Assembly: GCA_022784065.1 (NCBI GenBank)
Contig: JALFUO010000022.1
Span: 1-40,870 of the forward strand
DNA from: Bacteroidales bacterium
Lineage (GTDB): Bacteria > Bacteroidota > Bacteroidia > Bacteroidales > Bacteroidaceae
Reading direction: 5' to 3'
Length of the DNA: 40,870 nt
Shown here: positions 6,479-40,870 of the stretch, piece after piece
Numbering within the stretch: position 1 is the stretch's first letter
How the letters are laid out: every line of letters starts with the position of its first letter
Translations under genes and position numbers: made by a program
Notes under the pieces: model-generated
Database searches by the model: none
What the model saw: only the letters and a program-made list of their open reading frames with translations
Told to the model about the DNA's origin: nothing

Positions 6479-9400
6479 TTATTTCACAATCGCCTTCTTG
6501 CCGTTCATGATATAGATGCCCGGCTCTGTGGGCTCGGCGATGCGGCGGCCGCTGAGGTCGTAGATGCCCGTGCGGCGGCTGTCGGTGGCTTGCGGGAGCG
6601 ATGCGGCGGGAAGGTTTTTGATGTCGGTGGAAATCACGCCATCGGTCACCGTGTCGCCGTCGTAGCGGGTGAGGGTGAAACTGTTGATGGCGAGGCAAAT
6701 CTTCTCGCTCATGTTCACCACGAGGCCGAGCGACACCTCCGTTTCATCGGCGATGGCGAAATCTACGCTGTTGCTCTTCACCGACGTGCTGCGCTCCTTC
6801 ATTTGCGTATAGGCCAGCGCATCGGCTTGCAGGTCTTCCGTGTCGGGCAGCCCGTTGCCTTCTGCCACGGCCACGTAAGAGCGTCCCGGCTGTCCTTCCC
6901 ACTTCGTGTGGTAGTTGGCAGAGAAGAGATAGTGTCCTGCGGGCAGTTTCACCTTTTGCCAAACCTTATGGTTCGAGAGCGTAGAGAAGCCGTCCCAAAT
7001 GGTCGTCATCGTCATCAGGCCGTCCTTTTGCGCGTCCACGTGAACGCCAGTCGTGATGTTGCCGCTCACGGTGGCGTTCTCCTGCTTCCAATCCGTGATG
7101 GCGTAGAAGCGGTTGCTCACGGTGGTGTTGGTCTGCGTCGACGTGTGCGTGTAGGGCGCTGTGTAGTTTTTGAGATAATTGGCCGTCACGTCCTGCGTGG
7201 TGCGCTCGCCGAAGTTGAGGCAGAACACGCCTTTCGACTGTCCCCAGGCGTCGCCGTCGGGACCGAAGCCTGAGCGCGTGCCGATGTTGCTGTTCGAGGT
7301 GGCATCCGTCACGTTGCCGCCCGTTTGGTTGAACTGATAGTAGAGTTGCAGGCCGAGATTGCTCTGTGCGGCGGCGATGTCCTTAATTGTCTCGTTGGCA
7401 TAGGTGCGGAGCTGCTCCTGCGAGAGTGCCTGCGTCCACACGCGGAATTCGTCGATCTGTCCGTTCATCGGTGCGCCGCTAGTGCCGATGCAGAACTTCG
7501 AGAGTGTGGGCAGCGAGGTGTTCCAGAGGTATTTTGAATAGCATTTCTCGCCGTCGCGGTAGAAGGCCACTTCGTAACCGTTGAGCGTAATGGCATAGTG
7601 GTGCCACTGACCGGGAATGATGAAATCGTTGTAAGTGGTCTTCGTCGACGTGCCGTTGATGCTCACTTCCATGCCGCCTCCTGCCGTGGTGGTGAGGAGC
7701 AGCGTGGAAGCGTCGTCGCCGATACCGTTGCACGTGTTGTCCACCGTGCCCGCTTGCATCCACCAGTCAATGGTGAATTGCGACGTGCCAGCCACTGTGG
7801 GGATTTTCGCGGCGGTCACCTTGGCGTTGCCCGAGAAGTAGAGACCGTTCTCGCTATCCTCATTGCACACGATGAGGGCGCGTTCCTGCTCTGCCTTTGC
7901 CGTTCCGCTGCCGTTGGCTGCTTCGAGCGTTGCCTTGTACACGCCCGGTTCTGTGGGCGTCACATATCCGTTTTGGCTGGTCATGATGTACTGCGTCGCG
8001 CCGTTATCGAGCGTCCAGCGCCAGCGATAGGGCGCGTTCTTGCTTTGGTCGGTGAGTTGCACGTTCTCGCCTTTCACGATGACGGCCGGCGTGATGAGCA
8101 TATCGGCTACGGGCGGCACTTCCGAGATGGTGATGGTGCGGCTGCTCGTGGCAGTGCGTCCGTCGGTGGCGGTAACTTTGAGCGTCACGGTGTAAGTGCC
8201 GTGTCTCAGGTAGGTGACGGGCGTGTTCACGCGGGTAGAAGTTTCCTCCTTTGCGCCCGGCATACTCCAATTATACAGATAGCCTTCCACGGGGTTGTCC
8301 GCAATGAGCGAGATCGGCGTCCCTGCCTGTGCGGTCTCCGTGCTGGGCGTGAACGATGCGTCGGGAGCGGGCGCAGCACCTACGGCGATGGTGCGGCTCA
8401 CGCTCTTCTCCGTGCCGTCCTTAGCGACAGCCGTGAGTGTCACGGTTTGCTGGCCTGTTGACGAGAAGGTAAGCGTGGGGCGGGTGGCGATGAGGTTGCT
8501 TGCCCCTGCGCCTGCCGCCGTCCATTTCAGCGTCTGCGCGCCGTCGGAGCAGGTGGCGGAGAATGCGGCGGGCACGCCGGCTTTCACTCCTGTGGCGGGC
8601 ACGTTGATTGCGAGCGTGGAGAGGTCGGCGGATGCCTGTATGGCGGGCTGCGTGCTGCTTACGTTCGTGGCTTTCGAGTCGTGGAGCGTGCCGTGGTTCT
8701 TGCCGAGCGCGTTGCGATACTTCGTTTCGCCGTTTTCCGTAATCATGTCGCCCTTGAAGTAGGCAATCAGCCCGTCGGGCAAGCCGGCCTCGCCGTATTC
8801 CTTATACATGTCGGCCTGGATTTGTGCGGCCGTGCGTGCCGTGCGCCATATCCGCACCTCTTCCATCCTGCCGTTCATGGCATTGCTCGCCACTGCGCCG
8901 GGCTGTGCGAAGCAGAGGTCGCCGAAGCCGCCGATGCCCGAGTAGCTGTCGGAGGTGATGGTGCCCGCCTGCGAGCCGTTGACGTAGACAGTGAAGGTGT
9001 TGCCGTCCACCACCACGGCGATGTGCTTCCACGTATTCGTTTTCAGCGTGCCCGCTGCCGTGTTCACGCGGTTGGAGGTGTCCCAGCCTGCGGTGAATGT
9101 GCCGTCGGCGTTGGCGTGCATCATAAACTGCCCCCAGCCCGGGCCGGCAGCCTGGTTCCAGTTCGACAGCGTCGTGGGCCGCAGCCAGTATTCTATCGTT
9201 GCCTTGTCGTAGCGGCTGTTGAACGCTCCGGGAATGGTGAAGCCCGACTGGTTGAAGTTCATCACCTTGTTCACGCTCGTCGCTGCGGGCACAGTGACCG
9301 TGGCCCTGGGGCTTTCGACGTCGCCGTAGAGCGCCGTCACGGCAAACACGTTGCCCGCCGCGTCGCCGAAGTCGTAGGTGCGCTGCGAGGCGGAGAGTGT

Positions 9401-10987
9401 GGCGAGCAGGTTCGTGCCCTTATATACCTTATATCCTGTCAGCGTGTGGGCGCAGCGCACCGGTGCCGACCACGCCAGCGTTGTGCCCGTGGCGGAGAGA
9501 TTTTGCGGAGCGTTGTACACCTCACCCTGTATCACCACGGAGATCACCGTCTGGTTGCCGGCGTTCTTGATGTCCACACTGCCGTCGATGGCGAAGGGTG
9601 TTTCCAGTCCCTGCTCGTAGTCGATGATGGAGGCATTATAAATATGTCCCGACCCGATGGCCCAACTCTTCGTCTGCACGATGAAGAAATATTTGAGCGG
9701 CTGGTCGCCGTAGGGCGCGGTGAGGTCGGTGAGGTCGTAACCAAACTCCATCGGTTCATGGTGCAGTTTGCCGTCGGCCCAGCGTCCGAGCATCGGAATG
9801 GCGGGTGCGGGGTTCGTGTTGCCGTAGTTGCCGTCGCCGGCAAACTTGAAGTGCTCGAAGGGCACGGTCACGTCGGGCTCCGTTGCGTTGAGGTCGGCCG
9901 ATACGCCGGCGCAGAGGAAGAGTTCGCTGCGGCGCGTGTAGTCCATTTTGAGTTTGATGGTACGTTTCGGCGTGTAGCCTTTGCGCACCTTGTAGATTTC
10001 GGGCTTCCACCAGGCTGTGCTGCCCAGTTTGCCGTCGCTCGTAAACCATGCACCGCCGTAAGCGTACGGGCAATAGATGAAGCCGTTGTTCATCCAGTTC
10101 GCGCCCCACGAGTTCACGATGATCCACGCGCCCACCTCGTCCTTAGCGGTTTCGCCCGCGATGCCGTTGCCGTCGAGGTCAAACTCGAGGCGGTCGTCGT
10201 AGCCCACGATTGTGAGGGCGTGGTCCACCGTCGTGCCCCATTTCTTCACATAATTCTTTCCGTCGGCGCCGGCGGCGATGTTTGCGGCGGTAGAGGGCAC
10301 CATGCCCGCTGTCAGGGCGCTTGCCACGCCGATGCCCGCGATGCCGCCGCTGTGGAAGTCGGTGTCGCCGTTGTGGTTCCACAGCCAGTTCTTCAGCGCC
10401 TCGCGTCCCGCCTTGGTGCTCACGTCTTGCGGGAAGTTGCAGGGTGCTTCCATGCGGTTTTGCATGGCGGCGTACCACTTGTCGTAGCCCTGCATCCAGC
10501 CGAAGTTGTTGGAGGCGCAGTCCTGGTTGCCGAAGAGCGAGGAGTAGGTCTGTCCGCCGTAGAGGGCGGCGGAGGGCACGCCCACTTTCGTCACGAACTC
10601 GTCCTTGCCCGAGTTGCCGTTGGTGAGCAGCCACACGAAGTGGGAGGGATAATAGTTTTCCGCCTTTTTGCCGTCGAGGTTGCGGAAAGAGTTGAGTTCG
10701 TGGGTAAACATGTAGCAGATGCGCGATGCCGAACCGCACGAACCGCCCGCCTGGTTAAACACGGGCGGGAAGTGCATCGTTTCCGCGTTGTTCACGTGGT
10801 CGGGGCGCGTGGCCGTCACGCCGTTAGTGCTCACCACCTTACGCGGCATGAGCAGCGAGTTGTCTGTGCGCGTCACGGGCGCATAGTCGCGGTACTTGCT
10901 GAGATCCACCTCGTATAACTGTGCCGAGGCCGTGAGCGGCGCGGCTGCGAGGCACAGGGCTGCGAGGCGATGAAAAATGTTTTTCAT
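6479..10987 (-). CDS. Secreted papain-like (C1) peptidase with LamG and PKD domains and T9SS sorting domain
   Basis: A 1502-residue protein. A signal peptide (about 1-22, ending TASA) precedes a C1 peptidase domain to about residue 330, with oxyanion Gln79 and nucleophile Cys84 in FNQAGGSCGSAS, His256 in VDHALTIVGYDD and Asn292 in IIVNSWGANW; the catalytic set is complete. Then come a beta-rich region, a LamG/concanavalin-like domain (about 570-760), Ig/PKD-type repeats (about 785-1040; for example SRTITISEVPP), a second LamG domain (about 1045-1220), another beta domain, and a C-terminal sorting domain (TGIYDLSGRRIAEPTEPGIY, then IMNGKKAIVK). It is predicted to reach the cell surface by T9SS and to act as an adhesive or nutrient-acquiring protease. 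The ATG at 10987 is chosen for its signal peptide; the frame is open to 11167 without coding character. Confidence 0.88.
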   Translation of the reverse strand: MKNIFHRLAALCLAAAPLTASAQLYEVDLSKYRDYAPVTRTDNSLLMPRKVVSTNGVTATRPDHVNNAETMHFPPVFNQAGGSCGSASRICYMFTHELNSFRNLDGKKAENYYPSHFVWLLTNGNSGKDEFVTKVGVPSAALYGGQTYSSLFGNQDCASNNFGWMQGYDKWYAAMQNRMEAPCNFPQDVSTKAGREALKNWLWNHNGDTDFHSGGIAGIGVASALTAGMVPSTAANIAAGADGKNYVKKWGTTVDHALTIVGYDDRLEFDLDGNGIAGETAKDEVGAWIIVNSWGANWMNNGFIYCPYAYGGAWFTSDGKLGSTAWWKPEIYKVRKGYTPKRTIKLKMDYTRRSELFLCAGVSADLNATEPDVTVPFEHFKFAGDGNYGNTNPAPAIPMLGRWADGKLHHEPMEFGYDLTDLTAPYGDQPLKYFFIVQTKSWAIGSGHIYNASIIDYEQGLETPFAIDGSVDIKNAGNQTVISVVIQGEVYNAPQNLSATGTTLAWSAPVRCAHTLTGYKVYKGTNLLATLSASQRTYDFGDAAGNVFAVTALYGDVESPRATVTVPAATSVNKVMNFNQSGFTIPGAFNSRYDKATIEYWLRPTTLSNWNQAAGPGWGQFMMHANADGTFTAGWDTSNRVNTAAGTLKTNTWKHIAVVVDGNTFTVYVNGSQAGTITSDSYSGIGGFGDLCFAQPGAVASNAMNGRMEEVRIWRTARTAAQIQADMYKEYGEAGLPDGLIAYFKGDMITENGETKYRNALGKNHGTLHDSKATNVSSTQPAIQASADLSTLAINVPATGVKAGVPAAFSATCSDGAQTLKWTAAGAGASNLIATRPTLTFSSTGQQTVTLTAVAKDGTEKSVSRTIAVGAAPAPDASFTPSTETAQAGTPISLIADNPVEGYLYNWSMPGAKEETSTRVNTPVTYLRHGTYTVTLKVTATDGRTATSSRTITISEVPPVADMLITPAVIVKGENVQLTDQSKNAPYRWRWTLDNGATQYIMTSQNGYVTPTEPGVYKATLEAANGSGTAKAEQERALIVCNEDSENGLYFSGNAKVTAAKIPTVAGTSQFTIDWWMQAGTVDNTCNGIGDDASTLLLTTTAGGGMEVSINGTSTKTTYNDFIIPGQWHHYAITLNGYEVAFYRDGEKCYSKYLWNTSLPTLSKFCIGTSGAPMNGQIDEFRVWTQALSQEQLRTYANETIKDIAAAQSNLGLQLYYQFNQTGGNVTDATSNSNIGTRSGFGPDGDAWGQSKGVFCLNFGERTTQDVTANYLKNYTAPYTHTSTQTNTTVSNRFYAITDWKQENATVSGNITTGVHVDAQKDGLMTMTTIWDGFSTLSNHKVWQKVKLPAGHYLFSANYHTKWEGQPGRSYVAVAEGNGLPDTEDLQADALAYTQMKERSTSVKSNSVDFAIADETEVSLGLVVNMSEKICLAINSFTLTRYDGDTVTDGVISTDIKNLPAASLPQATDSRRTGIYDLSGRRIAEPTEPGIYIMNGKKAIVK

Positions 10988-11127: not shown

Positions 11128-11222
11128 TTATATGAGCGGGAACTGTATCATATAAGAAGCGCGGCACGGCCTACGCAGACAATTTTTCCTGTCCTATATG
11201 ATAGTTTTCCCGCTCCTATAAG
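11128..11222. promoter_or_regulatory. Cluster of TC(C/A)TATA-type motifs, possible operator
   Basis: CTTATATGA at 11128-11136 and TCATATAAG at 11149-11157 form an inverted pair 21 bp apart. TCCTATATGA at 11192-11201 and TCCTATAAG at 11214-11222 form a second set 22 bp apart. The cluster lies just upstream of the peptidase promoter. A binding protein is not identified. Confidence 0.4.
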
Positions 11223-11254
11223 AAACTTTTCATTATCTGCGCAGAAAAAGTTTG

Positions 11255-11332
11255 TTACAAACTTTGTAACACATATTACAAAGTTTGTAACACGTGTTAG
11301 CAAGTTTGTAATACGCGTTACAAAGTTTGTAA
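11255..11332. repeat. Array of four 15-bp palindromes at 21-bp pitch (array A)
   Basis: Units start at 11255, 11276, 11297 and 11318. The core is TTACAAAGTTTGTAA. Unit 1 has C at the centre and unit 3 is TTAGCAAGTTTGTAA. The 6-nt spacers are CACATA, CACGTG and TACGCG. A matching array lies at 40587-40664. The frame through it encodes only a repetitive NFVTRITN-like peptide and is not regarded as a gene. Confidence 0.9.
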
Positions 11333-11498
11333 TAAAAATTGTCTTGTGGATAGTAAAAACTTTCTGCGCATTCCGTAAAAACTTCCTTGCGGCAAATAAA
11401 AAATTCAACGCAGCAAATTCCACGAGTTCCACGTAGTATAGTTGCTGCGCTTGGCCGTGAAAGGCGGAAGGCACGGGCGTGAAACCCCGAAAACACAA

Positions 11499-11975: not shown

Positions 11976-13040
11976 ATGCTTAGAACGCTGCTTAGTTTCA
12001 TACCATTCTATGTGTGCCTATTCTGGCTGATTGCCTTTATCGCGCACTATAGGAAGAGCGACCTGCCCAAAAAGATATTGACATTTTTTCTGGGCACATG
12101 CACCGTGCTCTATCTATGCCATGGGCTTTACTTCACCGTGGGGCTGCCGCACGAGATGGAGAGTCTCTGGACGCTGTGCTCGCTGTCGGTTTATCCGCTT
12201 TACTACATCTATATCTGCCACCTTGTGTCGCGGCCGAAAGCGTCGCGCAGGTTGCTCCTCATACTGCTGCCCGGCACCGCCGTGGCGGCAGCAAAATATC
12301 TCTTCCCGGGCGATGCGGCGGACGAGGCACGCAAGTTGCTCTTTGCCGTTCAGGTTTTCGCCGTAGTCTATTTCGGATATCGCAAACTTCGTGCCTTCGA
12401 CCGAGAGATAGCCAATGTGTATGCCGATACAGAAGGGCGCGACACATCGGCCGTGAAGCATCTGCTCATCGCGTTCATGATGACGTCGCTGTGCTCGGCC
12501 GTGGCAAATGCTTTGGGCAAGCAATACTTTGCACAGAGCGATTGGCTGGTGCTGGGCATTTTCACCCCATTCTCCGCGATGCTCTTCGCGTTGAGTTACA
12601 TCGGGTTTACCCGCGATTTCTCTTTCGAGCAGTTTGCCGCCGACAGAGAGGAGGACTCAGAGGAGCCTGCCGACAGCGCGCCGGCCGTTGAGAGAAGCGA
12701 GGCGGGGAGAAGCGTGGAACGGCTCCTTACCGCCCAAAAACTGTATCTCACCCCGAACATCAAGATCGGCGACGTGGCAAGAGCCTCGGGTATTTGCCGC
12801 ACCTATGTGTCAAACTACATCAATCAAACAAAGGGCATGTCGTTCTCCGACTATATCAACAGCCTGAGAATAGACCATGCGAAGATGCTCCTGACTTCAA
12901 ACACTGAAAACGTGAAAATATCTGCCATCGCCGCGCAATCGGGCTTCTCAAGCGAGCAATCTTTCTATCGCAATTTCCACAAGTTTACAGGTATGAAACC
13001 ATTGGAATGGCTGAAGGCGCAGCGCGCGGGGACGAAATAA
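11976..13040 (+). CDS. AraC-family transcriptional regulator with integral-membrane N-terminus
   Basis: A 354-residue protein. The N-terminal ~210 residues contain about six or seven hydrophobic helices (LLSFIPFYVCLFWLIAFIAH, ILTFFLGTCTVLYLCHGLYF, YPLYYIYICHL, LLLILLPGTAVAAAKYLF and later segments). An acidic linker follows (DREEDSEEPADSAPAVE), then an AraC-type DNA-binding domain at about 245-350 with two helix-turn-helix units (IKIGDVARASGICRTYVSNY and VKISAIAAQSGFSSEQSFYR, then FHKFTGMKPLEWLK). Membrane-embedded AraC regulators of this layout are common in Bacteroidales and probably sense a signal in the envelope. The start at 11976 is preferred over an upstream in-frame start at 11928. 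The target is unknown; the divergent peptidase gene and array A are the nearest candidates. Confidence 0.85.
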   Translation: MLRTLLSFIPFYVCLFWLIAFIAHYRKSDLPKKILTFFLGTCTVLYLCHGLYFTVGLPHEMESLWTLCSLSVYPLYYIYICHLVSRPKASRRLLLILLPGTAVAAAKYLFPGDAADEARKLLFAVQVFAVVYFGYRKLRAFDREIANVYADTEGRDTSAVKHLLIAFMMTSLCSAVANALGKQYFAQSDWLVLGIFTPFSAMLFALSYIGFTRDFSFEQFAADREEDSEEPADSAPAVERSEAGRSVERLLTAQKLYLTPNIKIGDVARASGICRTYVSNYINQTKGMSFSDYINSLRIDHAKMLLTSNTENVKISAIAAQSGFSSEQSFYRNFHKFTGMKPLEWLKAQRAGTK

Positions 13041-40090: not shown

Positions 40091-40315
40091 TGAGCCGCCG
40101 CCTATCTTATGCAAAGGTAGTGCAAGGTAAGCGCAATAAAACTTGTTTTAATTTCTTGGCATTTTCGGCTGCGCTCGGCAATTCAAGCAAACTTGATTGC
40201 GCTCGCTTGCACGAAAATTGCCGAGCCGCAGCCTATCTTATGCAAAGGTAGTGCAAGGTGAGCGCAATAAAACTTGTTTTAATTGCCGAACCGCAGCCTA
40301 TCTTATGCAAAGGTA
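40091..40315 (-). repeat. Promoter-bearing direct repeats
   Basis: Two nearly identical 63-bp units (40091-40153 and 40222-40284) and a truncated third (40287-40315). Each carries CAAAGGTA, i.e. TACCTTTG on the minus strand (40112-40119, 40243-40250, 40308-40315), a match to the -7 consensus directed toward the acyltransferase gene. A GTTT is found 19 nt upstream in units 1 and 2. The spacer between units 1 and 2 contains a near-perfect inverted repeat (GGCTGCGCTCGGCAATT and its complement with one inserted base). Confidence 0.75.
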
Positions 40316-40567
40316 TATATTTTTGTGCGAAACGGCCGCTTGCTGCGCAGCAAAAGCGGAAAAAAGAAGAAAAGTATGTTGCTTTTGGATAGATTTTGGA
40401 TAGAAGTAGAGAGGCCGCGCTCCCCGCGAAACCCCATTCCCCCATACGGATTATTTCCGAGGCCGGCACTTAGCAAGGGCTAATCCACGTGGGCACCGAC
40501 GCTATCTTAAAGATAGTTTTTATTTTCTCGGAGTAATTTTTTCCTTCCTGCCTGAAAGTTTTTGCGC
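40316..40567. other. Gene-free spacer
   Basis: I see no gene, tRNA or strong hairpin. Short frames here continue across the neighbouring repeats and lack coding character. Confidence 0.4.
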
Positions 40568-40576
40568 TCCTATAAG
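40568..40576. promoter_or_regulatory. TCCTATAAG motif beside array B
   Basis: The same word occurs at 11214-11222 beside array A. It starts 19 nt before the first unit of array B and 41 nt before that of array A. Confidence 0.35.
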
Positions 40577-40586
40577 AGATTTTTTA

Positions 40587-40664
40587 TTACAAAGTTTGTA
40601 ATATGCGTTACAAAGTTTGTAACACGTATTAGAAAGTTTGTAACAAGCGTTACAAAGTTTGTAA
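40587..40664. repeat. Array of four 15-bp palindromes at 21-bp pitch (array B)
   Basis: Units start at 40587, 40608, 40629 and 40650. Units 1, 2 and 4 are exactly TTACAAAGTTTGTAA; unit 3 is TTAGAAAGTTTGTAA. Spacers are TATGCG, CACGTA and CAAGCG. Both arrays are followed by GATAGT(A/G)AAAACTTTC within 30 bp, so the loci are related beyond the units. Confidence 0.9.
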
Positions 40665-40870
40665 CAAAAAATTCCCAGCAGATAGTGAAAACTTTCAAGG
40701 GCTTAGTAAAAAATTGCTCGGGCTTAGGAAAAAACATCAGCCCGAAATCTTTTGTCTTTTCCTGATTTTACTAGACACTTTTTGCTCTTATTATCTGAAA
40801 CGGTAGACAGTTTTTTTATGCCATACTGATTCAATAGACACAATGCAGGAAGTTGTGCTGTTTTTATTGA
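40665..40870. other. Gene-free tail of the window
   Basis: AT-rich, with phrases resembling those around array A (GATAGTGAAAACTTTC). I see no gene; a gene may start beyond the window. Confidence 0.4.

Follow-up and report, generated by a model that had tools for sequence, protein, structure and literature searches.

Organization of the palindromic arrays in the window

The window, a 40,870-nucleotide stretch of Bacteroidales DNA analyzed as a whole, harbors two palindromic arrays of the same design. Array A (11255-11332) consists of four 15-bp palindromes that start at positions 11255, 11276, 11297 and 11318, with a pitch of exactly 21 bp. Three of the four units match TTACAAASTTTGTAA exactly, with a central C in unit 1 (TTACAAACTTTGTAA, 11255-11269) and a central G in units 2 and 4 (TTACAAAGTTTGTAA, 11276-11290 and 11318-11332, respectively). 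Unit 3 (TTAGCAAGTTTGTAA, 11297-11311) is imperfect, its left arm being changed by two mismatches. The array is flanked on each side by four outward-reading A-tract units of 21-22 bp, on the minus strand at the left (11166-11254), with the A-tract followed by a TC-N6-GA-like core, and on the plus strand at the right (11333-11418), the outer borders of both flanks being approximate. The neighboring genes, both outside the element, encode a large protein with C1-peptidase, Laminin_G_3, PKD and DUF5013 matches (6479-10987, minus strand) and an AraC-type regulator (11976-13040, plus strand).

Array B (40587-40664) has units at 40587, 40608, 40629 and 40650, the third of which reads TTAGAAAGTTTGTAA. 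It is likewise embedded between four outward A-tract units at the left (40500-40586, minus strand, outer border approximate) and four at the right (40665-40752, plus strand). Just beyond the last flank unit begins the end of a repeated, insertion-sequence-like element that reaches the contig end (40754-40870, plus strand). Upstream of a lipid A acyltransferase gene, AGCCTATCTTATGCAAAGGTAGTGCAAGG-type segments recur within 40104-40310, where a GGCTGCGCTCGGCAATT module is also present.

At up to three mismatches, the window contains 18 strand-matches to the palindrome, compared to 0.49 expected from shuffled sequence; none of 100 shuffles reached 18, and arrays A and B account for 16 of the 18. 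The four 15-bp palindromes at exact 21-bp spacing described in an earlier note on this DNA are thus borne out, whereas that reading had missed array B, the A-tract flank units and, beyond the window, some 80 more arrays of the genome.

A family of four-unit elements across the genome

The window belongs to an Alloprevotella metagenome-assembled genome (G000; 2.23 Mb, 103 contigs, 85% complete). It contains at least 209 exact copies of the palindrome, compared to none of a reversed-pattern control, grouped into at least 75 array clusters of the TTACAAASTTTGTAA core. Exactly four units are present in 68 of these 75 arrays. Free variation of the spacing, named in the earlier note as a sign against a functional array, is not seen, as 220 of the 223 unit spacings equal 21 bp. 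A pattern search for a sister core, TTCNAAASTTTNGAA, added seven loci of equal pitch, some of which are mixed with the first core. The total of about 82 loci, or one per ~27 kb, is a lower bound, as are all array counts in this genome, since the array lists are pattern-based and incomplete.

Each element has an array at its center and A-tract flanks on both sides, spanning ~250 bp overall. The copies differ in their linkers and flank cores and keep their half-sites. In 71 clean arrays of 78 bp, the arms at the two outer ends are nearly always intact (70 of 71 for the left arm of unit 1 and 68 of 71 for the right arm of unit 4), compared to 36-62 of 71 for the inner arms, with the left arm of unit 3 being the lowest (36 of 71). 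Units with a changed arm occur in 70 of the 71 arrays (exactly one such unit in 43 arrays, two in 24 and three in 3), and none in the remaining one; the arm affected most often is the left one of unit 3. The linkers are variable, and 167 of 213 alternate between pyrimidine and purine.

The flank units of 21-22 bp read outward on both sides, starting with an A-tract followed by a TC-N6-GA-like core, and share a similar consensus on the two sides. Exactly four such units were found in 113 of 150 flanks; the remainder have one to six, some being cut by contig ends, and the flank of L062 was trimmed by a decayed unit in the parsing. By eye, the unit cores extend further out without an A-tract in several elements. 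The first flank unit differs in type between the two ends in 29 of 35 typeable elements (74 examined; P 8e-5), so the elements have a polarity. An AAACT end is present on one side in 45 of 73 elements and on both sides in none. The polarity of the arrays in this genome shows no relation to GC skew. Three arrays of the second type or of mixed type, the flanks of which were read, also possess A-tract flanks, more degenerate in two of them by eye.

The same geometry with different sequences in relatives

The exact two-unit pattern of G000 had no match in 300 further genomes from the family, including 20 congeneric ones, and a looser three-unit pattern was absent from 57 other genomes of the genus. 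A narrower two-unit pattern gave no hit among 84,980 species genomes, among which the window's own record is perhaps not included. The two-unit pattern is also absent from viral contigs, and a phage origin was rejected.

When the relatives were scanned for sequence that repeats itself at short periods of any length, they proved to have arrays of other sequence. Alloprevotella tannerae (G043) carries GTTTG-N7-CAAAC units in 13 arrays within 280 kb, 10 of which have four units when up to three half-site mismatches are allowed and the linker is left unconstrained. At a stricter cut there are nine four-unit arrays, with a spacing of 21 bp in 40 of 41 cases. Among the 84,980 species genomes, the GTTTG pattern was found in A. 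tannerae only (28 of 28 stretches). The genome G184 has TCCATCCCATGGA units in 18 arrays within 400 kb, spaced by 21 bp in 33 of 35 cases, with three recognizable units in 12 of the 18 arrays. In G226, 14 arrays were found in 260 kb, with weakly palindromic units and a spacing of 21 bp in 17 of 33 cases. No 21-bp family was found in 400 kb of G082, the one 21-bp match being apparently a coding repeat, and none of three matches in 50 kb of G064, a member of the same genus, is at 21 bp. The 21-bp arrays are not universal within Alloprevotella. In a cross-check, each motif was matched against the remaining four genomes. The motifs of G000 and A. tannerae gave no array, and per genome one to two two-unit clusters were obtained with the G184 motif and two to nine with the looser G226 motif, nearly all at other spacings.

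In addition, A. tannerae has separate 22-bp A-tract arrays, so the two parts that are joined in the window's species exist apart there. This second family, with 22-bp units like TCGTGAGCGCAAACYYTTTTTA and T-tracts, is located at L210 14704, L212 3627, L229 9503, L229 16705 and L231 4882. Several other repeats were observed in these genomes: a sequence at L230 14256 of A. tannerae (TCTTATAGGATA) that is similar to the G000 flank units, a second family at 21-bp pitch in G184 (GGCCTTGGAAACGCARMAACA, at L163 9910 and L168 12817), 33-bp-pitch repeats of three to four units in G082 (L182 15768 and L183 5195) and CRISPR-like repeats GTCGCAGCCCGCTTGGGCTGCGTGAATTGAAAC spaced by 66-67 bp in G226 (L202 9522-9900).

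Arrays of a similar geometry were also found in another genus of the family. The genomes G002 and G091, from sister species, carry 18-bp palindromes of the unrelated sequence GTTTCCCN4GGGAAAC at a 22-bp pitch, with 64 and 71 forward pair matches, respectively; the G002 array, which has four units by eye, is one of five matches in 80 kb. This sequence is absent from eight other genomes of that genus and from four Alloprevotella genomes. Moreover, one of four matches in 60 kb of G010, which represents another genus, is a palindromic array at 22-bp pitch (TTTGACTCGAGTCAAA-like, L242 268). A 20-kb sample of G005 gave no match, and a 15-kb sample of G014 gave one match, an AT-rich simple repeat.

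Comparison of G002 and G091 showed that the array is kept in place in five of five orthologous pairs. Nine candidate pairs had been collected, four of which were non-orthologous by their flanks and were dropped, one dropped G002 stretch (L295) being without an array. Changed positions are rarer in the half-sites than in the flanks (3 of 245 compared to 102 of 2457; P 0.022). Within the array, the half-sites do not differ significantly from the remaining positions (P 0.47). For this comparison, five units were present in L288 and four in L289, four of six units were compared in L284/L285, and one decayed outer unit was excluded in L290/L291.

Distribution of the arrays along the chromosome

The array centers fall inside an open frame of at least 200 aa in 4 of 75 cases in G000, compared to 488 of 600 random positions, which does not agree with palindromes that are common and unclustered in coding DNA, the second sign against a functional array named in the earlier note. 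Arrays lie inside long open frames at 1 of 36 loci in A. tannerae, taken with a pattern that fixes half-sites and linker (background 318 of 400), and at 0 of 8 in G226 (background 308 of 400). In G184 the same test did not separate the arrays from the background (11 of 14 and 364 of 400).

Tandem palindromes of this size are typical of operators, and an AraC-type gene lies near array A, which favors operators of a single transcription regulator with a large regulon. However, arrays are no rarer between convergent genes than between divergent ones (20 and 17, in addition to 21 on the same strand and 17 with one side unclassified, by rough ORF calls in G000), the distances between arrays and genes vary widely, and ~82 loci of a fixed four-unit design are unlike a regulon. 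We therefore regard this explanation as highly unlikely. An operator for a local gene, one of the functions raised in the earlier note, fares no better, given ~82 loci in every gene orientation and no link to one gene. The same holds for replication iterons, as the ~82 loci lie on many contigs and the neighbors of array A encode a large multidomain protein and an AraC regulator.

The 16 contigs of G000 with at least two arrays provide 23 inter-array gaps, with a mean of 19.3 kb and a CV of 0.38. One gap is shorter than 10 kb, compared to 9.7-11.3 expected (P <= 1e-4, also with the arrays near contig ends fixed). The arrays are more evenly spaced than chance on shared contigs, as seen in G000 alone, a fragmented assembly for which the array lists are incomplete. 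Distances as short as 4.2-6.6 kb between arrays of A. tannerae weaken even spacing as a general rule. Array positions relative to orthologous genes showed no clear enrichment in the other Alloprevotella, with small numbers: for the distant species, a homologue at the G000 array loci was found for 8 of 65 array-adjacent ORFs compared to 48 of 605 other ORFs. No conservation of array position is visible across distant species.

Preferred sites of gyrase or another topoisomerase, with A-tracts aiding DNA wrapping as at the gyrase sites in E. coli BIME-2, would be compatible with A-tract-phased elements of ~250 bp at a mean gap of 19 kb on shared contigs, and the title of a work cited in PMC12306157 states that BIME-2 repeats are cleaved by gyrase. 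Yet the enzyme is conserved whereas the letters of the sites differ between species, and the strict dyad half-sites would point to a specific dimer, making such topoisomerase sites improbable in our view.

The insertion-sequence-like end TGTCTTTTCCTGATTTTACTAGACAC adjoins an array in 10 of its 11 copies in G000, which are located at 40754-40870 of the window and at the contig ends of C1, C10, C19, C40, C42, C53, C66, C86 and C90, in addition to the copy on C73, which has no array within the 1.2 kb read. In seven of nine measured copies the end starts ~88-90 bp from the array; the other two are shifted inward or outward by about one unit, as would be expected from three or five flank units. A tenth copy (L075) is also further out. 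The array elements look like a preferred target of this insertion-sequence-like element.

Half-sites, but not arm pairing, are conserved

Changes at positions 4 and 12 of the palindrome in 71 arrays of G000 affect a single arm in 92 cases and both arms in 3. In the 280 kb of A. tannerae, conservation is 95-100% in the half-sites GTTTG/CAAAC, whereas the inner 7 bp are variable, and the linker AT, although left free in the detection, was found in 42 of 42 cases. Among 67 distinct A. tannerae units, the inner base pairs pair no better than shuffles (z -2.8, -1.2 and -1.0), one of them being worse. Conserved half-sites with unpaired, variable inner bases fit contacts of a putative protein dimer with duplex DNA rather than a hairpin. 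A conserved RNA structure was rejected as well, as there is no covariation in the flanks, no conserved arm pairing and no Rfam match at the arrays, tRNA-Pro being the sole family in the window that reached the gathering score.

These data also bear on repeats of the REP/BIME type, which would be mobilized by a RAYT transposase and form hairpins in single-stranded DNA or RNA. REPs are extragenic, palindromic, species-specific and of high copy number and can be targets of insertion sequences (PMC2817692, PMC1525189), and the arrays resemble them in being extragenic, palindromic and species-specific, in their many dispersed copies and in lying beside an insertion-sequence-like end. In addition, the first flank-unit cores exceed column shuffles in palindromic pairing (1.85 of 3 pairs compared to 1.08). 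This excess derives partly from a mixture of two core types and would be explicable by a dyad-binding protein too, and no reverse-complement covariation was seen between neighboring flank units (z -1.8 to 1.1). The arrays differ from REP/BIME in their strict 21-bp pitch, their four units and the arm pairing described above, which is not conserved.

A RAYT link was sought among the Y1_Tnp genes of G000, G184 and G226 and was not found; A. tannerae has a Y1_Tnp gene as well. G000 has one such gene, which agrees with a RAYT-mobilized family, but no array unit was present in the 6.5 kb read around it; another palindromic repeat lies beside it by eye. The one read of two Y1_Tnp matches in G184 likewise has other repeats beside it, and G226 has arrays yet no Y1_Tnp match. 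Altogether, we consider a REP/BIME nature of the arrays very unlikely. The G000 gene itself, of RAYT type and the sole one found (C18:31331-31642; L196 2800-3400), is flanked by the palindromic repeat GCCCAGGGCAACGCCCTGGG, which is a second, REP-like repeat family in this genome.

Mobile repeats and known systems of dispersed sites

The main rival to a docking-site reading is a selfish, MITE-like origin, in which the arrays would be non-autonomous dispersed repeats, spread by a transposase, whose transposase-binding sites happen to come four at a time at two-turn pitch, without a host function. Tn7 ends contain several 22-bp TnsB sites and show target immunity, and immunity of this kind could also cause the even spacing. 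The array copies are dispersed and limited to the species, a subset of the G000 elements has a longer outer sequence in common, and those of G184 have long arms in common to the left and right of their array. By contrast, the G000 elements have no common terminal repeats and no fixed outer borders by eye, the linkers and flank cores vary between copies while the half-sites are kept, and the array stays in place in all five orthologous pairs of the sister species. A search for the Mu/Tn7-type transposase family PF09299 gave no match in G000 and none in all 14 control genomes either, so that its result speaks neither for nor against a mobile origin. We judge a MITE-like origin possible, albeit on the unlikely side.

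A precedent for such an origin is BrickBuilt of Porphyromonas gingivalis (PMC4596501), which is an intergenic, species-limited Bacteroidales family of tandem units of about two turns (23 nt) in many copies (19). Unlike the arrays, it is not fixed at four units, its repeat number varying between 1 and 22.8, and it is described as a MITE that has inverted ends (leader and tail), promoter activity and stem loops by prediction. The terms palindrom-, bend- and curv- are absent from its main text (PMC4596501).

The arrays are also palindromic sites at many chromosomal places, a feature that recalls the 13-bp matS sites of MatP in E. coli (PMC3330122) and the SegB sites of Sulfolobales (PMC12284271), which are short chromosomal sites at tens of places served by a dedicated chromosome-organizing protein. 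Neither is described there as forming four-unit arrays (PMC3330122, PMC12284271). Moreover, the SegB motif is reported in that account to be well conserved across genera and mostly intragenic, whereas the arrays differ in their letters and lie nearly all outside long frames (PMC12284271). As judged from these descriptions, none of BrickBuilt, REP/BIME, matS and SegB matches the pitch, the unit number and the sequence replacement together, and the open-access literature yielded no family with recurrent unit number, pitch and chromosomal density but exchanged sequence. Species-specific intergenic repeats are already known; constant geometry with exchanged sequence is what sets the arrays apart.

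Some plasmid centromeres consist of tandem 20-bp repeats bound by ParR-type proteins, with one centromere per plasmid beside the par genes. They resemble the arrays as tandem dyad sites at a pitch of about two turns that build a nucleoprotein superstructure, but differ in being single and next to par genes, compared to ~82 loci on a chromosome. The partition site suggested in the earlier note is not supported in its classical kind, although the mode of working may be similar.

A proposed role in chromosome organization

From the architecture and number of the arrays, their placement outside long frames, their even spacing in G000 and the new letters set in the same geometry in the relatives, we infer a protein, its cooperativity, a curvature of the flanks and an architectural role. 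We propose that the arrays are cooperative docking sites for a putative dimeric protein, distributed chromosome-wide and probably of architectural function, a reading to which we give about an even chance. A dimeric protein acting cooperatively had been envisaged from array A; the two-turn pitch, the dyad symmetry, the strict spacing and the recurrence of the geometry with unrelated sequences support this mode of binding, the protein itself being putative.

According to this docking-site proposal, the sequence-specific dimer would dock on double-stranded array DNA, so that four dimers, placed at two-turn intervals along the same face of the helix, would act together. The DNA to either side may be curved or phased by its A-tract units. 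The arrays would serve chromosome folding, the bordering of supercoil domains or segregation, rather than the control of single genes; a structural role seems most likely because the arrays lie all over the chromosome. The putative protein and its sites would change together, the letters being replaced between species while four dyads at 21-22 bp are mostly kept. A combination with the rival origin is conceivable, in which a once-mobile site family was adopted by the host.

More tentatively, and with somewhat less than even confidence, we suggest that a chromosome-organizing system is present in several species of Alloprevotella and in one or more further genera of the family, and that its sites are set by their geometry, in most cases four dyads spaced 21-22 bp, with one array about every 20-30 kb. 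The letters, and presumably the reading head of the protein, would have been repeatedly replaced, making the system a fast-evolving counterpart of centromere-like satellite DNA. Under this satellite-like reading, the two core types and the mixed arrays of G000 would reflect a replacement that is still under way. Selfish repeats that spread independently would likewise show unrelated letters in each species.

A. tannerae ATCC 51259 is a named strain with a clean version of the arrays. If the arrays bind a protein, they would offer a convenient case in which to follow the joint change of a DNA-binding protein and its scores of sites on the chromosome, and would open up chromosome organization in Bacteroidota.
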